NCBI GenBank assembly: GCA_030432715.1
Contig: JAUIML010000009.1
Coordinates: 1-33,800, forward strand
Reading direction: 5' to 3'
Length of the DNA stretch: 33,800 nt
Source: Acidimicrobiia bacterium
GTDB lineage: Bacteria; Actinomycetota; Acidimicrobiia; Acidimicrobiales; Aldehydirespiratoraceae
Of the stretch, positions 4,278-5,050 are shown piece after piece. Position 1 is the stretch's first letter; each line of letters begins with the position of its first letter. The translations under genes and the position numbers were made by a program. The notes under the pieces were generated by a model. The model saw nothing but the letters and a program-made list of their open reading frames with translations. It had not been told where the DNA came from and ran no database searches.

Positions 4278-4318
4278 AAATTAATTCGGTTGACGGATCC
4301 GTGATCGTTCGCGACGGT
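4278..4318 (+). promoter_or_regulatory. Predicted promoter of the whiB7-type gene (AT-rich block plus -35)
   Basis: An isolated AT-only block AAATTAATT (4278-4286) stands out in very GC-rich DNA. It is separated by exactly 3 bp (CGG) from TTGACG (4290-4295), a near-consensus -35. Seventeen bases later comes GACGGT (4313-4318), a weak -10 with the conserved A and T. Known WhiB7-activated promoters carry an AT-rich patch 3 bp upstream of the -35, which the AT-hook contacts, so this arrangement suggests autoregulation. A transcription start near 4325 is inferred, giving a leader of about 350 nt. Confidence 0.65.
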
Positions 4319-4357
4319 GTCACCTGCCGGAGGGACCGGTCGCGACCAGGAGTCGAC

Positions 4358-4513
4358 ATGAACTCGATCATGTGCAACGAGCATCAGAACGGCCTCAACG
4401 CCGCCGCTCGTGCGCGCGTGGACGTGCATGCAGCCCTGGCCATTTCGACCTCGTGGACGTTTGCCACGAAGCCGTATGGCGACCAGCGGCCCTCCGGAGC
4501 CTCTCCCGGGTGA
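4358..4513 (+). CDS. Upstream ORF (leader peptide) of the whiB7-type gene, 51 aa
   Basis: A 51-codon ORF, MNSIMCNEHQNGLNAAARAR... ending in RPSGASPG, with a strong AGGAG (4348-4352) 5 nt before its ATG. Its TGA (4511-4513) falls inside the first strand of the inner stem of the hairpin at 4501-4540, and an intrinsic terminator follows 37 bp later. This is the organisation described for whiB7/wblC leaders, where translation of the uORF couples ribosome stress to read-through into the regulator gene. The peptide resembles no family I know, and its sequence may matter less than ribosome position. It probably acts in cis. Confidence 0.6.
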   Translation: MNSIMCNEHQNGLNAAARARVDVHAALAISTSWTFATKPYGDQRPSGASPG

Positions 4514-4540
4514 CACCAACGTCACCCGAAGACGGGAGAG
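4501..4540 (+). promoter_or_regulatory. Nested RNA hairpin spanning the uORF stop codon
   Basis: CTCTCCC (4501-4507) pairs with GGGAGAG (4534-4540), and inside it GGGTGAC (4508-4514) pairs with GTCACCC (4521-4527) around the loop ACCAAC, leaving a 6-nt bulge (GAAGAC). The uORF stop TGA lies within the inner 5' strand, so a terminating ribosome would melt the structure. This makes it a candidate switch element governing the terminator just downstream. The base pairing is read directly; the regulatory role is inferred. Confidence 0.6.
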
Positions 4541-4550
4541 AAGCACTGAG

Positions 4551-4576
4551 GCCGCCGGTACACCCGGCGGCTTTTC
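4551..4576 (+). terminator. Intrinsic terminator in the whiB7 leader (attenuator)
   Basis: GCCGCCGG (4551-4558) pairs perfectly with CCGGCGGC (4564-4571) around the loop TACAC and is followed by TTTTC and, a little later, a second TTTT. It sits about 100 nt before the whiB7 start codon and after the uORF, so it would terminate transcripts early unless read through. A GCCGCCG inside the uORF (4400-4406) could pair with the 3' strand of the stem as an antiterminator; that alternative is speculative. Confidence 0.7.
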
Positions 4577-4678
4577 TGCTTTTCGGCCCCGCACCCGCCA
4601 CGACACACCAGATCCACACCGAACACCGACACACCGACACACCGCAAGAAACAACCCACCAGGGAAGGAGACGAGGTC

Positions 4679-5050
4679 ATGGGACTCCTCGTCGACAAAC
4701 AACTCAGCAACGACCAGCCGGCCGACGGGGACCAGGCGTGGGAGGACCGGGCGGCCTGCCGCTCGGTCGCCAACGCCGCCGAGCTCTTCTTCAGCGAGGA
4801 CATCGGCGAGATCGCGTCGGCCAAGCGCGTCTGCGCCGAGTGCCCGGTGCTCGCGCCGTGCCTCGAGGGAGCGCTCCAACGGCGGGAGCCCTGGGGCGTC
4901 TGGGGCGGACAGCTGTTCATGAACGGCAAGATGCTCACGGTCAAACGGCGCCGTGGCCGGCCGCCCAAGGTGGCCCGCCCCGAGGACCAGATGCCGGTCA
5001 TCCCGGTGCCGGCCCACCTCGTGGACCAGGCCCAACGGCTGACGGCCTGA
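4679..5050 (+). CDS. whiB7: WhiB7-type transcriptional regulator (WhiB domain plus AT-hook)
   Basis: A 123-residue iron-sulphur transcription factor. Four cysteines of the WhiB [4Fe-4S] site are visible: C27 (AACRS), C52 and C55 (RVCAEC) and C61 (APCLEG). They are followed by PWGVWGG (72-77), the sigma-A-contacting turn, and then a basic AT-hook RRRGRPPK (90-97). An AT-hook after the GVWGG turn is the hallmark of WhiB7/WblC, the activator of intrinsic antibiotic resistance regulons. The ATG is preceded by a strong AGGGAAGGAG ribosome-binding site. The leader carries a WhiB7-like promoter, a uORF and an attenuator (4278-4576). The C-terminus (about 26 residues after the hook) is family-variable. 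No resistance genes are adjacent, so targets lie elsewhere. The WhiB family is certain; WhiB7 orthology is likely. Confidence 0.9.
   Translation: MGLLVDKQLSNDQPADGDQAWEDRAACRSVANAAELFFSEDIGEIASAKRVCAECPVLAPCLEGALQRREPWGVWGGQLFMNGKMLTVKRRRGRPPKVARPEDQMPVIPVPAHLVDQAQRLTA

Follow-up and report, generated by a model that had tools for sequence, protein, structure and literature searches.

A probable uORF-dependent transcription-attenuation leader of whiB7 in the class Acidimicrobiia

Introduction

Does the DNA in front of a WhiB7-like gene of an Acidimicrobiia bacterium control that gene through translation of a short upstream open reading frame (uORF)? For whiB7 and wblC such attenuation has been published: full translation of the uORF leads to the terminator and impaired translation leads to the antiterminator (PMC11550727, PMC13236596, PMC4128351). 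The locus considered here is positions 4278–4678 of a window, i.e. the whole analysed stretch of 33,800 nucleotides from contig JAUIML010000009.1 (assembly GCA_030432715.1), and all the features described below lie on its forward strand. No report of such a leader in Acidimicrobiia was found in the literature searched; the wblC leader of Streptomyces was reportedly described by Lee, Lee and Roe in 2022, and that study might include Acidimicrobiia. Here we surveyed the anatomy, conservation and predicted folding of this leader and its distribution in the class.

Materials and methods

The family set was drawn from 51 genomes; a close whiB7 orthologue was found in 28 of these, and the 27 with clean sequence were used. 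For the class, 54 non-redundant Acidimicrobiia leaders were aligned, and the covariance model R1 was built from them. RNAalifold returned a mixed structure on the family alignment, and the pairs of the named helices were counted instead. Ribosome-position folding, which is a computed quantity only, was done by folding only the RNA downstream of the ribosome.

Results

The regulator was considered first by its own sequence. The gene at 4679–5050 is preceded by a Shine-Dalgarno sequence (SD; AAGGAG, 4665–4670) and encodes 123 aa with an EPWGVWGG turn and the AT-hook RRRGRPPK. The solved chain closest to its product is 7kif, annotated as WhiB7 (E 9.7e-17), and a mycobacterial WhiB7 query found this product as its best match in the genome at E 2.1e-17, the next match being at 1.4e-9. 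A tree of 27 WhiB proteins groups it with Mycobacterium WhiB7 and Streptomyces WblC (support 100/97); 22 other WhiB rows are separate and one long-branch row also falls on the WhiB7/WblC side. The NCBIfam search of the regulator returned no WhiB7 match. Judged by its sequence, the gene is a genuine WhiB7 orthologue. The initial annotation had described the locus as the leader of a whiB7-type regulator in what looked like a deep-branching actinobacterium; the structure match, the genome search, the AT-hook and the tree bear out the first part, and the second agrees with the named relatives, which are Acidimicrobiales, isolate DHS20C19 being the closest.

A promoter, which had not been mentioned before, was found at 4290–4318 with the −35 element TTGACG (4290–4295), a spacing of 17 bp and the −10 element GACGGT (4313–4318). 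Its pattern TAATT-cgg-TTGAC-17 bp-nAnnnT is kept in 27/27 family orthologues, and the uORF starts 66–82 nt past the −35 in the family leaders. The E. coli-type promoter scan of the window leader detected nothing, though the comparative promoter is clear. Transcription would start near 4325, and just past this predicted start lies a hairpin, CCGG-AGGGA-CCGG (4327–4339), that has a counterpart at the corresponding place in most relatives. The AT-rich block TTAATT (4281–4286), 3 nt upstream of the −35, is a candidate WhiB7 autoregulatory site. A block of this kind stands at the same spacing in all family members with a correctly anchored −35, and L023 has TAATTCGGTTGAC. In Streptomyces, WblC binds GAAAWY, which precedes the −35 by 3 nt (PMC7157823); the AT-rich block of the window has equal spacing and is TTAATT, not an exact GAAAWY. 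This shared spacing suggests, by analogy, that the whiB7 of the window is autoregulated through the site beside its −35.

The uORF occupies 4358–4513 with 51 sense codons, ends in ...TKPYGDQRPSGASPG before the stop TGA at 4511–4513 and has the Shine-Dalgarno sequence AGGAG (4348–4352) 5 nt before its ATG. The initial annotation had read it in the same way and had placed the TGA within a nested hairpin at 4501–4540; both are present in the sequence. In 27/27 family orthologues a uORF of 46–55 codons is preceded by an SD of 4–6 nt, and the hairpin around the stop folds in 27/27 relatives despite changed sequences.

The terminator lies at 4548–4585. Its stem pairs GAGGCCGCCGG (4548–4558) with CCGGCGGCTTT (4564–4574) and is followed by TCTGCTTTT, the whole tail being TCTGCTTTTCG. 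It had been described as an 8-bp GC terminator about 100 nt before the regulator gene; the terminator and its distance stand, and the stem is larger than claimed, with 11 pairs of which 8 are G-C. The terminator ends 63–74 nt past the uORF stop in the family leaders, and stop hairpin and terminator occur together in 27/27. With the relatedness of the sequences ignored, 99.6% of the cells of the family terminator are paired, 14 cells are changed on both sides and 0/500 shuffles do as well; the terminator also covaries in the 54 class leaders, where 98.8% of cells are paired. The leader 4325–4680 folds at z −4.9 against dinucleotide shuffles (0/100). Upstream of the terminator, GAGAAGCA (4536–4543) is complementary to the downstream U-rich UGCUUUUC (4577–4584), and going by this complementarity the two can pair into an extended terminator, for which the stop hairpin would be a competitor through its 3′ arm.

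It may be asked whether the leader governs access to the whiB7 Shine-Dalgarno sequence and not transcription. In favour of such translation attenuation, the minimum free energy (MFE) structure of the leader does contain a few pairs between the 3′ end of the uORF and the region where whiB7 starts; the GC-rich stem before the gene, which is conserved, covaries and has a U-rich tail, argues against it. The spacer between terminator and gene (4587–4660) contains 38 C, 9 G and 1 T, and C exceeds G in 27/27 relatives. Being C-rich and G-poor, the spacer is unlikely to hide the whiB7 SD, and we regard this explanation as very improbable. The composition of the spacer is rut-like, and Rho might act there as a second barrier.

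Within the 3′ end of the uORF lies a segment, r2 (GCGGCC-C-UC, 4486–4494), which complements GAGGCCGC in the 5′ arm of the terminator (r3, 4548–4555) and had not been mentioned before. In the family, 92% of the r2 cells are paired with r3, and the variation is too little for strong covariation. In the 54 class leaders the antiterminator helix covaries, as both its paired cells and its score exceed those of all 500 shuffles when kinship is ignored; alignment columns 33 and 104, for example, hold G-C in 33 sequences, A-U in 10 and G-U in 2. The matched r2:r3 duplexes average −18.8 kcal/mol, versus −16.7 (sd 0.27) when the segments are permuted among species (p 5e-5). Folding of 4325–4680 and covariation across relatives had both been proposed as checks by the initial annotation; the leader is far stabler than its shuffles, and the terminator and antiterminator helices both covary.

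The choice between these helices was followed by the position of the ribosome. With the P-site at codons 1–37 of the window uORF the probability of the antiterminator is 0.88 before the terminator 3′ arm emerges, and with the ribosome from codon 40 on it is 0 and that of the terminator 0.98–1.0; the P-site codons of this run were counted from 4359 in place of 4358, by which the conclusion is unaffected. In the relatives, for which r2 was mis-set in L006 and L009 by a preceding GCGACC motif and from which the window values are separate, a ribosome at the stop gives antiterminator 0 and terminator 0.99–1.0, and early stalls or no ribosome give a median antiterminator of 0.85–0.88 before the 3′ arm emerges. 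The antiterminator is thus predicted by these models to exclude the terminator and to depend on translation of the uORF. At equilibrium and full length most of the relatives' leaders favour the terminator, also when a ribosome is stalled on them, so that the control must be kinetic.

These foldings also bear on a trp-type arrangement, in which the 5′ segment (4327–4344) would pair with the 3′ end of an untranslated uORF and cause termination, and read-through would come only from stalls at specific codons. The unmasked window leader does fold with this pairing together with the terminator, and matched duplexes of the 5′ segment with r2 are slightly better than permuted ones (p 0.01). However, this long-range pairing is not robust across relatives, and almost all of them are without it when untranslated (median probability 0.0003), the antiterminator being already favoured there at 0.85. 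The N-part of the uORF, moreover, contains no stretch of a single repeated amino acid, and its evolution is nearly neutral. A trp-like anti-antiterminator was set aside as strong in the window fold and unsupported in relatives, and we consider the trp-type arrangement improbable.

The uORF peptide was compared in the family, where its C-terminal consensus is [TA]KPYxxQRPSGxPPG. Median omega falls from about 0.83 in the N-part to 0.43 in the C-part. Such a conserved end could be an arrest or pausing peptide, with KPYxxQRPSGxPPG stalling the ribosome near the stop. The difference in omega, the Pro-Pro-Gly that most relatives have ahead of the stop and the tyrosine codon, which is TAT in 24/25 though TAC is preferred 36:5 in window genes, are in its favour. 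But these very nucleotides double as the antiterminator segment and as the stop hairpin's outer arm, which can account for the conserved codons, so that RNA pairing explains much of the lower omega. PPG is replaced by SPG, PSG or PCG in some members, the window among them, and other Acidimicrobiia families keep the RNA layout with different C-termini. A stalling peptide is for these reasons unlikely, if slightly less so than the trp-type arrangement. Alanine makes up 18% of the window uORF and on average 14% of the family uORFs, versus 33% in Mycobacteriaceae uORFs, and the Ala-rich composition of mycobacterial type was not found in the window. Since the uORF is not Ala-rich and its N-part is almost neutral, it is probably translation itself that is sensed; we infer that the leader probably responds to completed translation in general and not to any single amino acid or particular peptide.

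The R1 model was then used for the distribution of the leader. In this genome it gives one strong match (E 1e-15; next 0.004). In 296 class genomes 96 full-length matches were found (E<1e-5), and 92 of the 96 share the strand of a WhiB7 homologue and lie at most 700 nt upstream of it; as the 96 include the 54 training leaders, the count gauges specificity more than independent discovery. Two of the four exceptions are at or near contig ends, L178 stands before a divergent WhiB gene and L177 before a different gene. At 49 of the 141 WhiB7 homologues of the class there is no R1 match at E<1e-5; these genes either lack the leader or have one that has diverged or is cut off. Outside the class, R1 matches lie directly upstream of the WhiB7 genes of genomes G092, G060, G114 and G102. 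A comparison of 4227 Rfam models with the window left the leader unmatched, and only tRNAs match.

Intrinsic terminators are common, and the weak R1 matches in other genomes are mostly ordinary ones; the locus might in the same way be the terminator of a small unrelated transcript that lies near a chance ORF. That the complete unit is conserved at whiB7, both in the family and in the class, refutes this as a general account, and for the window it is hardly credible. The initial annotation had proposed that whiB7 attenuation would extend to this lineage and had named the lack of a conserved uORF or terminator in orthologues as evidence against it. Both are kept in 27/27, which does not refute the proposal, and together with the 92 of 96 class matches at WhiB7 homologues these data support extending the mechanism to Acidimicrobiia.

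Discussion

The segment 4278–4678 is very probably the uORF-dependent transcription-attenuation leader of an autoregulated whiB7. The anatomy, the conservation, the covariation of both helices, the predicted dependence on ribosome position and the association with whiB7 support this; termination, translation of the uORF, induction by ribosome inhibitors and autoregulation are what we infer from the sequence. Transcription would start near 4325 from the promoter that carries a WhiB7-type AT-rich site beside its −35. During normal translation the ribosome would reach the uORF stop, melt the stop hairpin and sit between the antiterminator halves, so that the GC-rich terminator (4548–4574) may form and transcription would end before whiB7. 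If antibiotics, tRNA shortage or failed initiation hold translation up before about codon 37, the 3′ end of the uORF would be free to capture the emerging terminator 5′ arm, with the stop hairpin folding within the loop, and the antiterminator so formed would allow RNA polymerase to read through into whiB7. WhiB7 may then amplify its own transcription.

The whiB7 leader of Mycobacterium is alike in its SD-preceded uORF, the stop in a hairpin and the WhiB7 gene downstream (PMC4128351, PMC13236596), and also in having a terminator whose 5′ arm complements the 3′ end of the uORF (GCGUCCGUGG / CCACGGAC). The peptides differ: mycobacterial uORFs are Ala-rich and end in KRRAAAAT..SVD, and the window belongs to the TKPYxxQRPSGxPPG type, in line with the earlier impression of an unfamiliar peptide. 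Putative Streptomyces loci hold a complementary segment, a hairpin and a GGGCCGCGGA..UCCGCGGCCC terminator in equal order, with differing sequences, and the R1 search at the whiB7 loci of Mycobacteriaceae and these putative Streptomyces loci detected no sequence similarity. As the leader has every feature that can be tested by sequence, it is classed with the published uORF-attenuated whiB7/wblC leaders.

In ABC-F resistance genes (tiaA, are5sc, vmlR) translation of a uORF likewise switches between terminator and antiterminator (PMC12421871). Their uORFs are very short, and a single group of drugs stalls the ribosome on the start codon, whereas here the uORF has 51 codons and a stall at any point before about codon 37 is predicted to be effective. 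The amino-acid attenuators trp and ilvB are alike in that ribosome position governs alternative terminator and antiterminator, and the leader differs from them by having no regulatory codon run and no robust pairing of regions 1 and 2.

The distribution indicates that uORF-dependent attenuation of whiB7 apparently predates the split of Acidimicrobiia from mycobacteria and Streptomyces. The RNA layout was kept while the peptide of the uORF and the sequences of the helices were replaced, which favours a general translation sensor over recognition of a peptide or drug. R1 can serve as a marker of whiB7 leaders in this class, which is for the most part uncultured, and the divergent natural leaders form a test set for what such uORFs sense.

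A possible second antiterminator segment is AAGCCG (4469–4474), made by the Lys-Pro codons and complementary to CGGCTT (4568–4573). AAGCC is invariant in the 27 family leaders, AAGC is within the class consensus, and the MFE structure of 4465–4578 pairs AAGCCG with the terminator 3′ arm. It is conceivable, if still doubtful, that the antiterminator has two parts, GCGGCC with the 5′ arm and AAGCCG with the 3′ arm, and that His CAT and Tyr TAT codons pace the ribosome; this would be, to our knowledge, an undescribed form of whiB7 attenuator and would explain the invariant Lys-Pro codons. In the aligned uORFs the histidine of codon column 9 is CAT in 24/24 relatives that have it (window genes use CAC 33:12) and the tyrosine described above stands in column 45, both U-ending codons being conserved against the codon preference of the window.

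Two minor observations concern the exceptional and weaker R1 matches. L177 (G509:C157:66618-66727) is a leader-like element (E 7.7e-8) with an in-frame ...STKPAYSRLAWLLQ before a stop and a terminator; the ORF that follows appears by eye to be SnoaL/NTF2-like, and the same kind of attenuator is perhaps used there on another gene. L178, L181 and L190 are weaker R1 matches before WhiB7-like genes of other Acidimicrobiia families, two of them of the GVWGGVIFWDG..RGRGRPS type, and their sequences suggest that there is a second lineage of WhiB7 and that its leader is similar.
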